A stretch of 64,000 nucleotides of DNA from contig NZ_CP010407.1 in the NCBI RefSeq assembly GCF_000830005.1, forward strand, positions 2,461,001-2,525,000, written 5' to 3'. Made by a program: the position numbers and the translations under genes. Below the pieces are notes generated by a model. It was not told the DNA's origin. It saw only the letters and a program-made list of their open reading frames with translations, and ran no database searches. The DNA comes from Streptomyces vietnamensis (GTDB lineage: Bacteria > Actinomycetota > Actinomycetes > Streptomycetales > Streptomycetaceae). Positions 4,434-30,086 of the stretch are shown here, in pieces. Position 1 is the first letter of the stretch, and every line of letters starts with the position of its first letter.

Positions 4434-5504
4434 TTACGAAAGGACTTGCGGGAGCCGGCCGGGCGGCTGTGCGGTGGAACCGCGCACGACCAGCTCCGGC
4501 TGGAAGACGAACTCCGTGCGCTGCACCGGGTTCCCCTCGATCTCCTCCAGGAGCGCGCCGACGGCCGCCGTCGCCATGGCCTGCACGGGCTGGCGCACGG
4601 TGGAGAGCGGGGGGCTGGTGAAGGCGATGAGCGGGGAGTCGTCGAAGCCGACGACGGAGACGTCGCCGGGCACGTCGAGGCCGCGGGCGCGGACGGCCCG
4701 GATGACGCCGAGCGCCATCAGGTCGGAGCCGCAGACGATGCCCGTGCAGCCCTCGCGGAGCAGGATCTCGGCGGCCGCGTGCCCGCCCTCGACGCCGAAG
4801 AGCGTGGGCCTGATGAACCGTTCGGCCTCGGTGCGGTCGACGCCGAGGAGCTCGTACAGCTCGGCGGTGAAGCCCTCGGCCTTGCGGCGCGAGGGCACGT
4901 AGCGGGTGGGGCCGATGGCGAGGCCGATCCGCTCGTGGCCCAGCTCGACCAGGTGCCGGACGGCCATCCGGGCCGCGGCCCGGTCGTCCGGGGAGACGAA
5001 GTTGGCGTCGATGTGCTCGTTGTAGCCGTTGATGAGGACGTACGGGACGCCCCGGTCCGACAGCCTGGCGTAGCGGGCGGGGTCGGCGGTGGCGTCGGCG
5101 TGCAGCCCGGAGAGGAAGACGATGCCGGCCACCCCGCGCTCCACGAGCTGTTCGACGAGCTCGTCCTCGGTGGCGCCGCCGGGCATCTGGGTGCAGAGCA
5201 CCGGGGTGTAGCCGTGCCCGGCGAGGACCTGTTCGACGACCTGCGCGAAGGCCGGGAAGATCGGGTTGGTCAGCTCGGGCACGACGAGCCCGACGAGGCC
5301 CGCGCTGCGGCGTTTGAGCCGTACGGGACGCTCGTAGCCGAGCACGTCGAGGGCCGCGAGCACCTTGTGCCGGGTCGCGCCGGCCACCCCCGCCTTGCCG
5401 TTGAGGACGCGGCTGACGGTGGCCTCGCTGACCCCGGACTGGGCCGCGATGTCCGCGAGCCGCGGGGCGCCGTTCCCGGCGCCCCGCGGCAGGGGGATCG
5501 TCAC
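4434..5504 (-). CDS. LacI-family regulator, MalR paralogue
   Basis: Sugar-responsive DNA-binding repressor of 356 residues. The GTG start at 5504 overlaps the glucosidase stop by four bases (GTGA), so translation is coupled. Residues ~12-35 are the LacI helix-turn-helix (LADIAAQSGVSEATVSRVLN), followed by the hinge (VLGYERPVR) and a periplasmic-binding-like sensor domain ending with VVGFDDSPLIAFTSPPLSTV. It matches MalR (10739-11773) along its whole length, including the recognition helix, so both may bind the same CTTGC-type operators. It lies downstream of the gene it probably controls, which would give feedback. The ligand is inferred to be maltose or maltodextrin. Confidence 0.93.
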   Translation of the reverse strand: MTIPLPRGAGNGAPRLADIAAQSGVSEATVSRVLNGKAGVAGATRHKVLAALDVLGYERPVRLKRRSAGLVGLVVPELTNPIFPAFAQVVEQVLAGHGYTPVLCTQMPGGATEDELVEQLVERGVAGIVFLSGLHADATADPARYARLSDRGVPYVLINGYNEHIDANFVSPDDRAAARMAVRHLVELGHERIGLAIGPTRYVPSRRKAEGFTAELYELLGVDRTEAERFIRPTLFGVEGGHAAAEILLREGCTGIVCGSDLMALGVIRAVRARGLDVPGDVSVVGFDDSPLIAFTSPPLSTVRQPVQAMATAAVGALLEEIEGNPVQRTEFVFQPELVVRGSTAQPPGRLPQVLS

Positions 5505-22922: not shown

Positions 22923-23300
22923 GTTGTGGGCAATCGTTCCGCTGGGGCGGAACGGGTGGGCACAACGGACCCGCGCCCTGCCGGCGCCCGAGGCTTCCGC
23001 GCCCGAACCCGCACGTGCGGTGCGACGCGCTGGTGGTGCGGGTCCAGGCTCGGGACGCGGAGGCGCCGCTGAAGGGCGCCGTCCCGTGTGCCCACCCGTC
23101 CCGCCCCAGCGGGACGATTGCCCACACGGGCGCGGGGCGACGCCCAGCCAGGCGCGGGACCGCACGGCGGCGGGGCACCGGTCCGTCGGGCGCGGGCCGC
23201 ACGAGGCGCGGGGCGGAGGCCCAGCCGGGCGCGGGGCGAAGGCCCAGCCGGGCGCGGGCCCCGCACGGCCGGCACGGACCGCGCGGGCGGCCGCCGGAGC
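22923..23300 (+). repeat. Long near-palindromic dispersed repeat, copy A
   Basis: Left arm 22923-22966 and right arm 23086-23127 are inverted copies of each other. Each arm contains a small hairpin (GTTCCGC-TGGG-GCGGAAC on the left; GTCCCGC/GCGGGAC on the right). The bases between the arms also pair, so 22923-23127 is one roughly 205-bp imperfect palindrome. A tail (23128 to ~23300) holds degenerate ~40-bp GC-rich repeats containing GGCCCAGCCGGGCGCGGG. It fills the gap between two converging genes. Copies B and C begin at 37956 and 46575. No coding signal was seen. Confidence 0.85.
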
Positions 23301-24296: not shown

Positions 24297-24383
24297 TACA
24301 GCACCGGCAGGTTCTTGCGGAGCTCGAAGGCGGTGACCTCGGAGCGGTACTCCTCCCACTCCTGCTTCTTGTTCCGCAGGAAG
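24297..24383. repeat. Left attachment-site copy: 87 bp of the glnA2 3' end
   Basis: These 87 bases are identical to 28481-28567, which encode the C-terminus of glnA2 (KKQEWEEYRSEVTAFELRKN then LPVL). The identity stops abruptly at both edges: the outer base gives TAA here and TAG in the intact gene, and past 24383 the sequences differ entirely. A direct repeat of a gene's 3' end around an integrase gene is the usual sign of site-specific integration. Confidence 0.88.
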
Positions 24384-24487
24384 TGACGAGACACCGAGGG
24401 CACCTCAGCTACAGCTGAAGCGAGCACTTGAGATCGTCTCCCATGTGGTTGTTGTTGGGTATCCCTGGCTACCGATGGCGACCCTGG

Positions 24488-24506
24488 GACGGCCCACAGA
24501 CGGCCC
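24488..24506. repeat. Putative integrase arm site, left
   Basis: GACGGCCCACAGACGGCCC contains GACGGCCC twice in direct orientation 11 bases apart. An almost identical sequence in the same orientation lies near the other end of the element (28375-28393, one base different). Paired repeats of this kind next to attachment sites often bind the integrase N-terminal domain; that role is inferred. The surrounding 24384-24600 stretch has no gene. Confidence 0.4.
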
Positions 24507-24518
24507 AGCCCTGCCCGG

Positions 24519-24546
24519 TTACTGAACTTGAACTCGTGATGTCGGT
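24519..24546 (-). repeat. Copy 1 (inverted) of a ~30-40 bp motif within the element
   Basis: On the minus strand it begins ACCGACATCACGAGTTCAAG and ends TTCAGTAA, matching the 3' part of the motif at 25061-25102 and 26715-26755. It is in the opposite orientation to those two. It may be a terminal inverted repeat left by a lost insertion sequence. Confidence 0.5.
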
Positions 24547-24600
24547 CGACTCGTGGTGGCGGCGTCAGGGTCCGAGACGTCGGCTGTTACCGGCTCGGGT

Positions 24601-24963
24601 TCAGGACGACGGCTGTAGCCAGCGCCGCGCCGCGGAGAGGTTCACCTCGACGTCATCGCTCCAAGAACAGACCTCCAGCCATGAGAGGTAGCCGCCTTGC
24701 GCGAAGACCAAGACCTCACCAGGGCACTCGCCGGTTTCGGTGAACAGCTGCACGTCGGCAGCCACGACGGTGCCGGGGCCCGTTGGCGCGGGCTCCAACG
24801 CGTCGGCGTCAAGGTCGAAGTAGGCAGTGCCGCACCCGCACTTGCAGCGGGATTGCACCCTGAGTTGGGGCACCTGCCGTCGGAGGGCGACGTGAATCGG
24901 CTCGTCCGGGTTCAGGACGAGGCCAAGCACGTCGGCTACATCCTCGGGCAGACTTTCAGGCAT
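24601..24963 (-). CDS. Hypothetical acidic protein with CxCGCG motif
   Basis: Predicted protein of 120 residues beginning MPESLPEDVADVLGLVL. A short cysteine cluster (SRCKCGCGTAYFDLD) at ~38-52 could bind a metal, followed by an acidic body (VEVCSWSDDVEVNLSAARRW near the end). The Shine-Dalgarno site is weak. I do not recognise the family. It is element cargo with no obvious partner; an overlapping forward open frame looks like its shadow. Confidence 0.5.
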   Translation of the reverse strand: MPESLPEDVADVLGLVLNPDEPIHVALRRQVPQLRVQSRCKCGCGTAYFDLDADALEPAPTGPGTVVAADVQLFTETGECPGEVLVFAQGGYLSWLEVCSWSDDVEVNLSAARRWLQPSS

Positions 24964-25060
24964 GCCGCCACCGTAGCTGACCAGCAGCTTCGGGCTTCGA
25001 CCAATTTCGGGTCCGTCGACCCGACGCTCACAGGGCCAGGTCGGTGCCGCCGGCCAGCTG

Positions 25061-25102
25061 TCAGGCGAACGGCACCGACATCACTCAATCGAGTTCAGTA
25101 GC
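25061..25102 (+). repeat. Copy 2 of the element motif
   Basis: The motif starts TCAGGCGAACGGCACCGACA and ends GAGTTCAGTAGC. It matches 26715-26755 in the same orientation over ~41 bases with a few differences, and the two copies bracket the IS630-containing segment. The last bases overlap the stop region of the small membrane protein gene. Confidence 0.6.
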
Positions 25103-25310
25103 GGGCGAGGGTCCAGTTCGTGAGGCGGTCCACGATGTCGAGAACCGACCTGCGTGCCCCGGCGGAGATGAACGCGAAGACGACGAACGAGGGGATGAGC
25201 GCCACGATCACGACCAACGCGGGCAGCAGACGGACCACGATGGTGCAGAAGTCCAGCAGGGCGCGGAGGGTCCGGGTCTGAAACAGGAGGTCGATCAAAC
25301 GGTCCAGCAA
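25095..25310 (-). CDS. Small membrane protein, unknown function
   Basis: Seventy-one residues from a TTG at 25310, chosen because GAGGAG lies seven bases upstream; the longer open frame begins 41 codons earlier without a ribosome site. One or two hydrophobic segments (VVRLLPALVVIVALIPSFVV) are flanked by amphipathic basic sequence (LIDLLFQTRTLRALLDF). I do not recognise it. It is cargo of the integrated element. Confidence 0.45.
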   Translation of the reverse strand: MLDRLIDLLFQTRTLRALLDFCTIVVRLLPALVVIVALIPSFVVFAFISAGARRSVLDIVDRLTNWTLARY

Positions 25311-25442
25311 GGTGTACTCCTCGGATACGCGAGCGGGGTCACCTGGTGTCCGACTGAGGGCATACGTCTCCCTCGGACGGTGCCTTGTCAGGGCAACCAA
25401 GCTAATGAAGAACCCCGCTGGCCCGCGTTTCACGAGTCAGCG

Positions 25443-25466
25443 GCAGGTTCGAAACCTGCTGCGCAT
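25443..25466 (+). other. tRNA T-arm-like relic
   Basis: GCAGG, TTCGAAA, CCTGC has the exact geometry and loop consensus of a tRNA T-arm, followed by seven bases that could be half an acceptor stem. No D-arm, anticodon arm or matching 5' acceptor half lies upstream, so this is not a tRNA gene. It could be a leftover attachment core from a tRNA-targeting element, or chance. Confidence 0.25.
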
Positions 25467-25564
25467 CCCTGTCTCCCTGCATATCGACCTACGGCGCCGG
25501 ACAACAGTCCGGCGGGCAGCTGAATTTACTGACCGCCACACTGTCATTCAAGGGCGAATTTTAG

Positions 25565-26682
25565 TCACTGTCTAGAAACGCTCGAAGCTATTGCCTGAGC
25601 TTGAATGCGTGATGCCGGCCAGTCGTCCGTGATCAGGCCGGTGCTGGTCAGGCAGCCGTCGACCAGGTCCGGACGGTACTGGATCTGCTTGAGCCTGCGC
25701 TTGACGGCGCGAGTGATCTGGCCGAGGTCGGCTGCGGCAAGGTTGCCGATGTCGCGTTTGACCAGTGACCAAATGCCCTCTTGCGGGTTCAAGTCCGGTG
25801 CGTAACTCGGAAGTTGGAAGACGGTGAGCCAGTCCGCGTGGTCGGCGATGAATCGGCGCATCGCCTCGACCAGGTGCATGCGCAGGTTGTCCCAGACCAG
25901 CACGATCGGGCCGCCGAGCTGGATGTGCGCTCTGACCAGCAGGTCGCACAGGTCGCGCCAGCCGATGCCCTTCGGCTCGCCCTTGCGGCCCCGGTACTCG
26001 CGGACCGAGTAGAGCGTCCGGGACCGCTTCCCCGGCTTGTAGCAGGTCAGCCCGGCTATGGACACCCGGCCCGAGCCCCGGCCACGGACCCGGACCACTG
26101 GCGTTGAGCCCTTGCGTCCCCAGCTTCTCGCTCGCGGCGGCGTCATCGACTGCCCGGCTTCGTCCTCGAAGACGATCCAGCCGTCACATGCCGCCGCGGT
26201 GCTCTCACCCGCGGCCAGGTCTCCTTCTTCCAGACCTCGACCGCCGCGTCGCCACGCTCGATCGCCCGCCGAGCCGGCTGCTGCCAGGACCAGCCGTGCC
26301 GCTTCAGCAGCAGCCACGTCCCCTCCACGGTGTAGCTCACGTGGAACAGCCGGCCGATCAGCGTCTTGATCCGGGCCAGTGTCCACCGCTGGTCGGCCCA
26401 GCCGTGGACCAGCGGCCCACGCTCCAGTTCCCGTTCCAGCCTCGCGATCTGTGCTTCGCCGAGCCTCGGCCGCCCCGGCGATCCCTTCGACAGGACCCCC
26501 GCTTCACCGCGCTCGCGCCACTGACGGCGCCACCGTTCCACAGACCGCTCACTGACCCGCAGCGTCGCAGCGATGTCCCTGTTCTTCTGCCCGCCTTGGA
26601 AGCGTGTCACGGCCTGCAGCCGGACCCGCTCCCTCGCGGCCCTTCCGATGTCGGTCAACCCGCCGCCCTGCGCGTATCTCAC
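25565..26682 (-). pseudogene. IS630-family transposase, split by a -1 frameshift
   Basis: The N-terminal frame (GTG 26682 to 26143) has the helix-turn-helix QKNRDIAATLRVSERSVERW and a linker to VWKKETWP. The catalytic domain continues in another frame ending at 25565, with the DDE residues in GWIVFEDEAGQSM, LVLVWDNLRMHL and APDLNPQEGIWS. The frames overlap between 26143 and ~26290, and a -1 shift joins them. No canonical A-AAA-AAG slippery site is visible, so a disabling indel is more likely than programmed frameshifting, though the latter occurs in this family. I could not identify terminal inverted repeats or a TA duplication. Confidence 0.75.
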
Positions 26683-26714
26683 AGTTCAGGGCTACCGGAA
26701 CGGACCGACCACCA

Positions 26715-26755
26715 TCAGGCGAACGGTCCGACATCACCCAATCAAGTTCCGTAGC
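26715..26755 (+). repeat. Copy 3 of the element motif, at the truncated integrase start
   Basis: The sequence from TCAGGCGAAC to AAGTTCCGTAGC repeats 25061-25102 in the same orientation. The recognisable integrase reading frame begins immediately after it, so this motif marks the breakpoint where the integrase gene lost its 5' end. Confidence 0.6.
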
Positions 26756-27770
26756 GCCAGCCGGATCACGTTCCGGCAGTACGGCGAGAAGTGGCTCGCC
26801 TCCCAGACCACGGATACGACGACACGCACGACAGTGGGCGTTCACCTTCGGCTGCACGCGTTCCCGTACCTCGGTACTCGGCCGATCGACTCATTCCGCC
26901 CCGAGCACATCCGTGAGTGGCTTGCGGGGTTGGAGAAGTCGCTGCCTGTGTCGTCGTACCGGCGCGTCATCTTCGCCAGCGTCTCGGCCGTCCTCGCCGC
27001 GGCGCGCGGCGGTCGATGACGACCTGCTCGCCAAGAATCCGTGCAAGTCCCGCTCCGTCGGGCCGCCGGCGCTGGTCCCGCCCCGCGTGAAGCCGTGGAC
27101 CGCTGCGCGCGTGTTCGCAGTGCGGTCCGCGCTCCCGAAGCAGTACCAGACGATGGTCCACCTCGGCAGTGGGTGCGGGCTCCGTCAAGGGGAGGTCTTT
27201 GGGCTCGCCGAGGAGCACGTCCGGTTCGACACTGGCTGGCTTCATGTGGCCAATCAGGTGAAGGTGGTCAACGGTCGCCTGATATTCGGCCTGCCGAAGC
27301 GTGGAAAGGAGCGGGACGTCCCCCTCCCCCGCCAGGTCGCCCATGTTCTCCGCGAGCACGCCAAGGAATTCTCGCCGGTTGACGTCTCTCTGCCCTGGCT
27401 GAAGCTCGACGGGCCGCTCGTAACCAAGCGGCTGCTCTTCTCCCTAAAGGGCGGCTGCACCGTACGGCGAACTGACTTCAACACCCGTGCGTGGAAGTCC
27501 GCGCTCGTCCAGGCAGGCGTCATTCCGGAGCCCAAGGAGGGCGAGCGACACCTGGCCGCCCGCGAGCACGGGATGCACGCGCTGCGGCACTTCTACGCTT
27601 CGGTCCTGCTGGACGCCGGCGAGAACATCAAGGCCCTGAGTCACTACCTCGGGCACCCAGACCCGGGCTTCACGCTCCGGGTCTACACCCACCTCATGCC
27701 AAGCAGTGACGCGCGCACACGCAAAGCCGTGGACGCCATCTACACCCTCCACAAGGTACGCAAGGAGTAA
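26756..27770 (+). pseudogene. Tyrosine integrase, 5'-truncated and frameshifted
   Basis: Site-specific recombinase of the Streptomyces integrative-element type. The SAM-like core-binding domain (TFRQYGEKWLASQ to SSYRRVIFASVSAVLAAA) reads in one frame to ~27004. The catalytic domain continues in another frame with GCGLRQGE (Arg I), HALRHF (His-x-x-Arg), HYLGH and VYTHLM (nucleophile Tyr). The break is a 7-bp tandem duplication, CGCGGCG at 26998-27004 and 27005-27011; removing one copy restores a continuous frame through AAAVDDDLLAKNP. The expected ~60-residue N-terminal arm-binding domain is missing. The gene should be non-functional. Confidence 0.88.
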
Positions 27771-28027
27771 TGAAACTTAGTCACAATTAATATTCAATGG
27801 TCAATCAAGGGTCGTCATATCATCGACCAGACAGCCTCACTGACGCCCTGGATTACCATCACCCGAGACAAAGGCGCCCAATTCGACAGAGCCGATCTGC
27901 GGGTGTAGGACGGAAGACGGGAAGGTTGGTTACGCATCTTTCTCCGGCTTGAGTCAAAAGTGCACCTATTGTGCAGACTCGCCGGAGGGTAATGGGGACA
28001 CGCTCCACCAATACGTGGGGAGCAGCA

Positions 28028-28306
28028 ATGCACATCAAGCAGATATTCAGCGTGGTCGTCGGCCTGGCTCTCGCCGCATCCGTGCTGCTGTTCGCACCGA
28101 TGTCACAGGCCGCCACACCGTCAGTGACCGATCCGTGTGCGGGGCAGCCGATTCTCACGAAGATTCACTGCCTCGCCGGTAAGCCGAGCGCCCGTAGCCT
28201 GCTGAACTACTACTGCCAGGTCGCAGTGTCTATCGGGCTCGTCACACACAACAATCCGCAGCTGGAGGCTTACAAGATCTGCAGCAAGATCGTCCCCGTG
28301 AAGTGA
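28028..28306 (+). CDS. Small secreted four-cysteine protein, unknown function
   Basis: Ninety-two residues from the ATG at 28028, with GGGGAG six bases upstream. Residues 1-29 are a clear signal peptide (MHIKQIFSVVVGLALAASVL, then cleavage near SQA-AT). The mature ~63 residues contain four cysteines (DPCAGQ, KIHCLAG, NYYCQVAV, YKICSKI), suggesting two disulfides. I do not recognise the family. It is the best-formed gene in the integrated element, between the dead integrase and the right attachment copy; 27771-28027 upstream is AT-rich and gene-free, perhaps its promoter region. Confidence 0.65.
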   Translation: MHIKQIFSVVVGLALAASVLLFAPMSQAATPSVTDPCAGQPILTKIHCLAGKPSARSLLNYYCQVAVSIGLVTHNNPQLEAYKICSKIVPVK

Positions 28307-28374
28307 ACCGCCACGGCCGGCGGCGCATGCTCAGATCGACAGTCAGCACCTAGCCACTCCCCTCTGAGTCGCCA

Positions 28375-28393
28375 GACGGCCCGCAGACGGCCC
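28375..28393. repeat. Putative integrase arm site, right
   Basis: GACGGCCCGCAGACGGCCC matches the left-end copy at 24488-24506 in 18 of 19 bases and in the same orientation. It lies 87 bases inside the right attachment copy. The rest of 28307-28479 has no gene. Confidence 0.4.
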
Positions 28394-28479
28394 CGCATGA
28401 CGGCGGCCGCATCCGGGTCGGCGTTGCCTCATCGTCGACCCGGACGCTGGCATACGCCAGAACCTATTTTGACCTGCGA

Positions 28480-29847
28480 CTACAGCACCGGCAGGTTCTT
28501 GCGGAGCTCGAAGGCGGTGACCTCGGAGCGGTACTCCTCCCACTCCTGCTTCTTGTTCCGCAGGAAGAAGTCGAAGACGTGCTCGCCGAGCGTCTCCGCC
28601 ACCAGTTCGCTCTTCTCCATCAGGGCGATCGCCTCTCCCAGGTTCTGCGGGAGCGGCTCGATGCCCATCGCGCGGCGCTCCGCGTCGGAGAGGGCCCAGA
28701 CGTCGTCGTCGGCGCCCGCCGGGAGTTCGTAGCCCTCCTCGATGCCCTTGAGGCCGGCGGCGAGGAGGACCGCGTACGTCAGGTACGGGTTGGCGCCCGA
28801 GTCGATGGAGCGGACCTCGACGCGGGAGGAGCCCGTCTTGCCCGGCTTGTACATGGGGACGCGGATGAGCGCGGAGCGGTTGTTGTGGCCCCAGCAGATG
28901 TACGAGGGGGCCTCGCCGCCCGAGCCGGCCGTGCGGGAGGAGCCGCCCCAGATGCGCTTGTACGAGTTGACCCACTGGTTGGTGACGGCGGAGGTCTCGC
29001 CCGCGTGGCGCAGGAGGCCCGCGATGAAGGAGCGGCCCACCTTCGACAGCTGGTACTCGGCGCCCGACTCGTAGAAGGCGTTCCGGTCGCCCTCGAAGAG
29101 CGACAGGTGGGTGTGCATGCCCGAGCCCGGGTAGTCCGAGAACGGCTTCGGCATGAACGTGGCCTGCACGCCCTGCTCGAGCGCCACCTGCTTCATGACC
29201 AGGCGGAAGGTCATGATGTTGTCCGCCGTGGACAGGGCGTCGGCGTAGCGGAGGTCGATCTCCTGCTGGCCGGGCGCGCCCTCGTGGTGGGAGAACTCCA
29301 CCGAGATGCCCATCGACTCCAGCATGGTGATGGCCTGGCGGCGGAAGTCCATGCCGACGTTCTGCGGGGTGTGGTCGAAGTAGCCCGAGTTGTCGGCCGG
29401 GGTGGGCCGGGTGCCGTCGAGCGGCTTGTCCTTCAGGAGGAAGAACTCGATCTCGGGGTGGGTGTAGAAGGTGAAGCCGAGGTCGGAGGTCTTGGCGAGG
29501 GCGCGCTTGAGGACGTACCGCGGGTCGGCGAAGGACGGCGAGCCGTCCGGCATGAGGATGTCGCAGAACATCCGGGCCGTGCCCGGGGCCTCGGCGCGCC
29601 ACGGCAGGATCTGGAAGGTGCCCGGGTCCGGCTTGGCGATCATGTCGGACTCGTAGACGCGGGCGAAGCCCTCGATCGCGGAGCCGTCGAAGCCGATGCC
29701 CTCGTCGAAGGCCTGCTCCAGTTCGGCGGGGGCCACGGCCACCGACTTCAGGAAGCCGAGCACGTCGGTGAACCACAGACGTACGAAGCGGATGTCGCGC
29801 TCCTCGAGCGTACGGAGCACAAATTCCTGCTGCTTGTCCATTTCCAC
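28480..29847 (-). CDS. glnA2: Glutamine synthetase-like gamma-glutamylpolyamine synthetase
   Basis: GSI-family ligase of 455 residues that forms a gamma-glutamyl amide from glutamate, ATP and an amine. By neighbourhood with glnE and sequence type it corresponds to Streptomyces GlnA2, reported as a gamma-glutamylpolyamine synthetase; this rests on memory. Landmarks: GIGFDGSAIEGF, THPEIEFFLL and PGQQEIDLRYAD (metal and glutamate ligands), GMHTHLSLF, and NRSALIRVPMYK (ATP site). GTG 29847 is preferred (GAGG six bases upstream) over ATG 29841 or 29853. Its last 28 codons and most of the stop lie in the 87-bp attachment repeat (28481-28567), so this C-terminus came with the integrated element; coding is unaffected. 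Confidence 0.9.
   Translation of the reverse strand: MEMDKQQEFVLRTLEERDIRFVRLWFTDVLGFLKSVAVAPAELEQAFDEGIGFDGSAIEGFARVYESDMIAKPDPGTFQILPWRAEAPGTARMFCDILMPDGSPSFADPRYVLKRALAKTSDLGFTFYTHPEIEFFLLKDKPLDGTRPTPADNSGYFDHTPQNVGMDFRRQAITMLESMGISVEFSHHEGAPGQQEIDLRYADALSTADNIMTFRLVMKQVALEQGVQATFMPKPFSDYPGSGMHTHLSLFEGDRNAFYESGAEYQLSKVGRSFIAGLLRHAGETSAVTNQWVNSYKRIWGGSSRTAGSGGEAPSYICWGHNNRSALIRVPMYKPGKTGSSRVEVRSIDSGANPYLTYAVLLAAGLKGIEEGYELPAGADDDVWALSDAERRAMGIEPLPQNLGEAIALMEKSELVAETLGEHVFDFFLRNKKQEWEEYRSEVTAFELRKNLPVL
28481..28567. repeat. Right attachment-site copy inside the glnA2 3' end
   Basis: Identical over 87 bases to 24297-24383. It encodes the C-terminal residues of GlnA2 and the last two bases of its complement-strand stop. 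Integration at this point recreates the coding end, so the host keeps a working gene. See the element entry. Confidence 0.88.
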
Positions 29848-30086
29848 ACCCATCCTCGCTGGTCAGGCCGCCTGCTCCCACCGCCTCCGGTACATCGGGG
29901 GGCACCTGAGCATCCCACCACATGGTTTCGCGCACGTTGCACACCCATACTGCCTGCTCGGGTGTGACTCAGGTAACGGGGGAGCGTCCGGATTCGGACG
30001 GCGGGAGGTGCCTCGTTCGCCCGTCCGGCGGTTGCCCTTCGCTACCGAGTGGTACCCCGTTCGGCCCATACGGGCTCCTCTCCCAC

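Follow-up and report, generated by a model that had tools for sequence, protein, structure and literature searches.

A 4.1-kb segment in the chromosome of Streptomyces vietnamensis is, with a probability that we put at approximately 0.9, what remains of an actinomycete integrative and conjugative element (AICE) whose tyrosine integrase recombined it into the 3' end of glnA2, a gene for a glutamine-synthetase-family ligase. The segment lies in a 64,000-nucleotide stretch of contig NZ_CP010407.1 (positions 2,461,001 to 2,525,000 of the forward strand), which is called the window hereafter and whose positions are used below unless genome coordinates are indicated. The glnA2 end is a recurring docking site for mobile elements, in other genomes as well as in this one.

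The 3' end of glnA2 is present in the window as two identical 87-bp copies, both on the reverse strand: a far copy at 24297..24383, the low side of which is joined to the host flank, and a near copy at 28481..28567, which forms the 3' end of the intact gene (28480..29853, reverse strand, 457 amino acids). The starts of the two copies are 4,184 bp apart, and approximately 4.1 kb of foreign DNA separates them. Each 87-bp block consists of the last 28 sense codons (430-457), two stop-codon bases and one base of codon 429, so that the repeat search confirmed the two identical copies of the last 28 codons described in the original prediction, which was made from the sequence alone. The stop codons are unlike, with TAG at the intact gene and TAA at the far copy. 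A chance repeat was excluded because the next-longest direct repeat in the surrounding 13 kb (20 largest of 37 repeat families), far below the 87-bp identity, is only 40 nucleotides long at 75% identity. The whole genome (9.15 Mb, 2 contigs, completeness 100) contains exactly these two copies of the block. A tRNA attachment site was also considered and dropped, as ARAGORN detected no tRNA gene in the 64-kb window. The glnA2 product passes the NCBIfam cut-off for GlnA (438 versus 429 bits) and belongs to one of five glutamine-synthetase-family genes in this genome. We take the gene to be glnA2 from its family and from the synteny with S. coelicolor (SCO2234 glnE, SCO2241 glnA2); the GlnE gene is located approximately 8 kb from glnA2 (genome positions 2479058-2481274).

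In a close relative (G307), the site is empty. The left flank and the glnA2 side are contiguous there, with an overlap of exactly 87 bp, which is the outcome predicted by site-specific insertion. The left flank of the element shows 87.2% identity to G307 over 1,061 bp and the glnA2 side shows 97.7% identity over 1,420 bp, while nothing in the 12-kb G307 stretch spanning the empty site matches the 4.1-kb segment.

To define how often the glnA2 end is duplicated, the 87-bp block was used as a query against 392 Streptomyces genomes, one per species. The glnA2 end was matched in 388 genomes, and 89 genomes yielded two block matches. The second match has an E value of 1.3e-9 or better in 54 of these 89, and the other second matches (4.6e-5 or weaker) are short stretches. 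Two candidates per genome were scored in this first search, and 54 of 392 is therefore a lower bound; when 20 candidates per genome were scored, three strong copies were found in none of the 89 genomes. Forty-four of the 54 pairs are located on the same contig at distances of 0.8-26.2 kb, 42 in direct and two in inverted orientation (G207 and G350), whereas eight are split over contigs (G188, G202, G211, G237, G299, G330, G339 and G391) and two (G285 and G375) are far apart on one contig. The edges of the block are nearly constant. In all 39 aligned pairs, homology ends at the stop codon; at the other edge, it stops slightly inside position 87 in 37 pairs and extends past it in G141 and G051. 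These 39 pairs do not include G234 and G356 (<60 of 87 positions identical), G231, which was too short, or seven entries removed at the outset. In G141 and G051 (loci L041 and L050), the far copy lacks the sharp inner edge of the other pairs and is prolonged by a longer, degenerate part of glnA2. At the two inverted loci (L073 in G207 and L072 in G350), the second copy is 8-9 kb off, and no integrase relative was found at the locus.

The duplicated ends are tied to one clade of integrases. Using the full-length integrase of the better-preserved element in genome G015, we detected by tblastn a relative in 29 of the 44 on-contig loci; the match covers 406 or more residues in 18, 384 residues in G091 and is partial in 10. 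Six of these integrases were combined into a profile for a search of 384 genomes, and its top 23 matches (757 bits or more) all adjoin a duplicated glnA2 end, at approximately 0.1 kb or less in 20 cases and at 1.0, 1.9 and 4.5 kb in the others. The weaker matches that could be placed sit elsewhere, such as the one at 2585179 in the S. vietnamensis genome (G000), approximately 96 kb from glnA2. Named genomes were scanned separately, and the best 80 of 368 integrase relatives were kept. Among these, the glnA2 end adjoins 47 of the 50 integrases with at least 69% identity to the G015 integrase and none of the 30 below 69%. In 44 of these 47 linked cases, the locus includes 100 or more residues of glnA2; two others are cut by a contig end (L116 and L136) and one is at an attP-type junction (L119). 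For 43 of the 47, the distance between the integrase and the glnA2 end is 81-94 bp. In the integrase tree, the site label needs 4 changes, compared with 25.7 in shuffles, and the 47 linked integrases and three exceptions (L102, L113 and L117) lie on one side of a branch with a support of 95. The catalytic fragment of the window integrase groups with the integrases of S. omiyaensis and S. toxytricini inside this clade (support 98). Ten further genomes with a clade integrase beside glnA2 were chosen from the same scan, mostly for their long contigs, and all 10 contain a second block copy on the same contig, 8.7-33 kb away. Because these genomes include Nonomuraea, Acrocarpospora and Kitasatospora, the site is used in two actinomycete families. 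Thus, the duplicated glnA2 ends and the related integrases beside glnA2 for which the original prediction had proposed a search were both found.

Integrases related to this clade show comparable arrangements at other genes. Sister integrases with 62-68% identity to that of G015 (L261, L263, L264 and L265) have 87-91 bp blocks duplicated at another coding-sequence end; they differ from the glnA2 clade in the target gene and in that it is the far copy that forms part of the longer coding sequence. With L256 included, the duplicated blocks are 83-91 bp long and the target end reads NFIYFWPL...TWI, presumably that of a protein O-mannosyltransferase-like gene. Another sister integrase (L154) adjoins a coding sequence ending in VELSFDQIQKN, presumably NusG. 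Near the Streptosporangium clade integrase L113, which is not at glnA2, the region 5064-5210 contains TGACCTGC followed by a weakly att-like stretch (att, attachment site) downstream of another gene, which is perhaps a secondary site. The S. vietnamensis genome itself contains two more integrases of the same larger family (G000:C1:2585179-2586438 and G000:C1:3550524-3551747), which share 67% and 63% identity, respectively, with that of G015 and for which no flanking repeat was found in a 20-kb stretch examined for each.

The kind of element was judged from gene content, which we checked in two better-preserved relatives, G346 and G015. AICEs are defined by the combination of integrase (Int), transfer (Tra) and replication (Rep) functions (PMC3218068). 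All three are present together in the G346 element, which encodes FtsK_SpoIIIE (PF01580), Prim-Pol (PF09250), DUF3987 and NUDIX/GntR proteins. The G015 element encodes a NUDIX/GntR protein, an excisionase-like helix-turn-helix protein and the integrase, together with a weak match to TraB (NF041214, E 3.5e-7; no Pfam match) and a replication candidate without a family match. In addition, a circular 18.5-kb Streptomyces plasmid (NZ_CP107792.1) carries an integrase with 61% identity and a gene order similar to that of the element and, judged from these features, looks like the circular form of an AICE; the 87-bp block has no match on it. Nor was an attP with an 87-bp match found in the phage or plasmid record collections. 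The window element does not possess the intact int, tra and rep genes of a working AICE. It is a remnant, because it has a broken integrase and none of the open reading frames (ORFs) of the segment was assigned to a tra or rep family, and it is probably immobile unless another integrase helps.

An attP-type junction was found in S. harenosi PRKS01-65 (L119), where the contig order is int, hairpin, the 87-bp block and then element sequence in place of the gene and host DNA. The glnA2 gene of the same assembly ends in an identical 87-bp block, and the int side of the element recurs without a difference in the 40 bp past its stop codon. The site is therefore occupied, and the attP-type junction is present as well. 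One clade integrase was found in the assembly, and a second integrase with 61% identity is located elsewhere. From this arrangement, the junction could belong to a free circle or to a tandem pair.

Several observations weigh against the assignment to an AICE inserted by this integrase clade. No relative of the G015 integrase was detectable at 15 of the 44 on-contig loci, some of which may hold other elements; the clade integrases L113 and L117 are located elsewhere than at glnA2, and the contig of L102 ends at the expected place; and the AICE label rests on the relatives, since the window offers a broken integrase and no recognised tra or rep gene. The 15 loci without a relative of this integrase would also fit a duplication of the glnA2 end that arose by chance or in assembly with no integrase involved, but we give this next to no credence in view of the empty site in G307, the fixed block edges in divergent genomes and the integrase clade tied to the site. 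An assembly artefact, a concern raised with the original prediction, was dropped, as other genomes, many in number, carry divergent block pairs at the same position. The remnant could also have been left by a prophage or a phage satellite instead of a conjugative element, given that the integrase matches phage integrase families and that the window itself has no recognised tra or rep gene. This appears very improbable, since the relatives carry FtsK_SpoIIIE and Prim-Pol genes, the similar gene order with a 61% identical integrase occurs on the 18.5-kb circular plasmid, and the integrase is matched only below 60% identity in 638 phage records. The originally predicted integrative element at the 3' end of glnA2 is supported by the empty site, by duplicated ends in 54 or more of the 392 genomes, by the integrase clade and by the attP-type junction.

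The int and glnA2 genes converge, and at 42 of 43 linked short-spacer loci the spacer between them forms a strong hairpin (z below -2, simple shuffles); four linked loci with longer spacers (L121, L133, L137 and L140) were left out of this analysis. The element therefore brings a likely terminator. In the window, a hairpin-forming stretch close to the near copy (28407..28444) resembles the int-glnA2 hairpin of the related elements, and TGACCTGCG is located beside the glnA2 stop codon (28470..28478, forward strand). The motif GACCTGC occurs within 16 nucleotides of the stop codon in 34 of the 43 related spacers. By eye, a hairpin of this kind also seems to accompany related integrases at other sites, and therefore the hairpin would belong to the integrase module and not to glnA2.

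The position of strand exchange determines which part of GlnA2 is supplied by the element. Mismatches between the two copies of 29 well-preserved pairs are absent at positions 72-83 and in excess at positions 85-87 and 1-15 (32 at positions 1-15 versus 18 expected), and position 81 varies between species, yet no mismatch within a pair is present there. This pattern favours an exchange near codons 431-434 (inner crossover), to which, with the allele comparison below also taken into account, we give odds of about three to one; insertion would then probably replace approximately the last 23 codons of GlnA2. In the window, the stretch of the presumed exchange lies between TCCTGC and GCAGGA; this inverted pair is not kept in all species and was given no weight. 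Alternatively, the strands may be exchanged at the stop codon, in which case the gene would be wholly host-encoded, the far 87 bp would be a passenger copy of the element, and no C-terminus would be replaced. GACCTGC beside the stop codon, kept in most spacers as described above, pairs inversely with GCAGGT at positions 11-16, in keeping with such an exchange, but the mismatch-free run across a position that varies between species and the enrichment at positions 1-15 speak against it, and we consider it unlikely.

The alleles of 37 pairs were also compared with those of 99 empty relatives, G307, G339a, G339b, G285a, G285b, G350, G207, G234, G356, G154 and G308 having been dropped beforehand. 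At positions 76-87, the near copy is like the host in 26 cases and the far copy in 3, which is expected under both crossover models. At positions 1-15, the far copy carries the host allele in 16 cases and the near copy in 12, which favours the inner crossover over an exchange at the stop codon. The points opposed to the inner crossover are that the near copy is like the host in 14 cases and the far copy in 2 at positions 16-30, as the stop-codon exchange would have it; that, where the two copies differ, the near copy agrees with the nearest empty relatives at 88 positions and the far copy at 42; that the mismatch-free run has a p value of approximately 0.015 with pairs treated as independent; and that neither copy tracks the integrase tree, with a weak host signal, in a partial Mantel test of 19 elements. 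The two copies within one genome share rare host-type variants (e.g. in G064, G130 and G336), which suggests that they may have been made alike by conversion or repeated exchange. The part of the original prediction according to which the element supplies a replacement C-terminus is likely to be right: it agrees with the mismatch pattern, whereas the allele comparison gave a mixed result.

Taken in sequence, the events would be as follows. The tyrosine integrase of an AICE would recombine into the glnA2 3' end, giving the 87-bp duplication; with a crossover near codons 431-434, the element would supply approximately the last 23 codons and the stop codon of GlnA2 and leave the old host end as the far copy. 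The inserted element would also place a hairpin behind glnA2, with the enzyme left whole. In the window, most genes of the element would later have disappeared, one or two insertion sequences would have been acquired, and the integrase would have ceased to work. GlnA2 of S. coelicolor (SCO2241) is described as a gamma-glutamylpolyamine synthetase (PMC8998196). As a tentative and broader proposal, which we hold to be somewhat doubtful, the glnA2 end may be a dedicated landing site in Streptomycetaceae and Streptosporangiaceae for one integrase clade, where arriving elements would rewrite the last 23 or so codons, add a hairpin and could thereby tune a polyamine-detoxification gene, the att blocks being kept alike.

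AICEs mostly use tRNA genes, with the pSLS integrase subfamily as an exception (PMC3218068); no record with the name pSLS is among the 40 plasmid matches. The glnA2 elements resemble pSAM2, SLP1 and their relatives in having a tyrosine integrase beside att and excisionase-like, FtsK/TraB-like, Prim-Pol and NUDIX plus GntR genes, but they use a protein-coding 3' end. Such targets are known in Streptomyces. PAISt of Streptomyces turgidiscabies is a 674-kb island at bacA with a 138-141 bp end duplication and an 8-bp palindrome core (PMC4057263). It shares with the glnA2 element a tyrosine integrase and a protein-coding gene 3' end that is used as target and duplicated, and differs in the target gene, the palindrome core and the size. 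In a Streptomyces population, 14 of 51 elements were located in protein-coding genes, of which rlmN was named (PMC9513070). One of them, AICE03 of strain RLB3-6, is likewise a Streptomyces AICE in a protein-coding gene, but has 11-bp repeats at rlmN. Decay of AICEs to direct repeats plus a partial integrase is also described in that paper. In the literature searched, we found no report of glnA2 as an integration site; the search did not cover the supplementary site tables of PMC3218068 and PMC9513070, in which it may be listed. Accordingly, the claim that such an insertion is unusual and undescribed holds for glnA2, which seems to be new as a target as far as the literature was searched, but not for protein-coding 3' ends in general, which are already known (bacA and rlmN). 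Here, the 3' coding end of a conserved enzyme plays the role usual for tRNA 3' ends. With its integrase clade, this new chromosomal attachment site, present in nearly all of the sampled Streptomyces genomes, is a candidate for integration vectors. Furthermore, as one integrase clade corresponds to one gene and sister clades are found at other coding sequences, the evolution of target choice can be studied.

The remnant in the window (24384..28480) has a G+C content of 0.65, compared with 0.72 for the whole window. The 4.18-kb segment had been predicted to contain a tyrosine integrase gene; an integrase is present, but only as two fragments of a truncated and frameshifted gene. Fragment 1 (26756..27019, forward strand; Phage_int_SAM_3, E 6e-7) shows 94.6% identity to residues 78-151 of the G015 integrase, and fragment 2, containing the catalytic domain in another frame (27012..27770, forward strand; Phage_integrase, E 6e-12), shows 83.6% identity to residues 162-405. 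The first 77 or so codons of the full G015 integrase were not found, and the truncation point coincides with the right end of an insertion sequence (IS) with end repeats (25589..26753, reverse strand, ends approximate; DDE_3 and HTH_33). We presume this IS to be IS630-like from its Pfam families. Its transposase lies in two frames (25565-26386 and 26143-26682, reverse strand). A 584-bp segment with IS-like ends (24519..25103), recognised by repeat comparison, holds a 120-amino-acid ORF, and one of its ends shares 88% identity with the right end of the IS over 43 bp; it is possibly a non-autonomous, gene-carrying relative of the neighbouring IS. An ORF of 111 amino acids (27971..28306, forward strand) belongs to no family and has, by eye, a signal-peptide-like start. 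Finally, the left host flank contains a 46-nucleotide inverted repeat (22925-22970 and 23081-23126), the arms of which are 91% complementary and 110 nucleotides apart.

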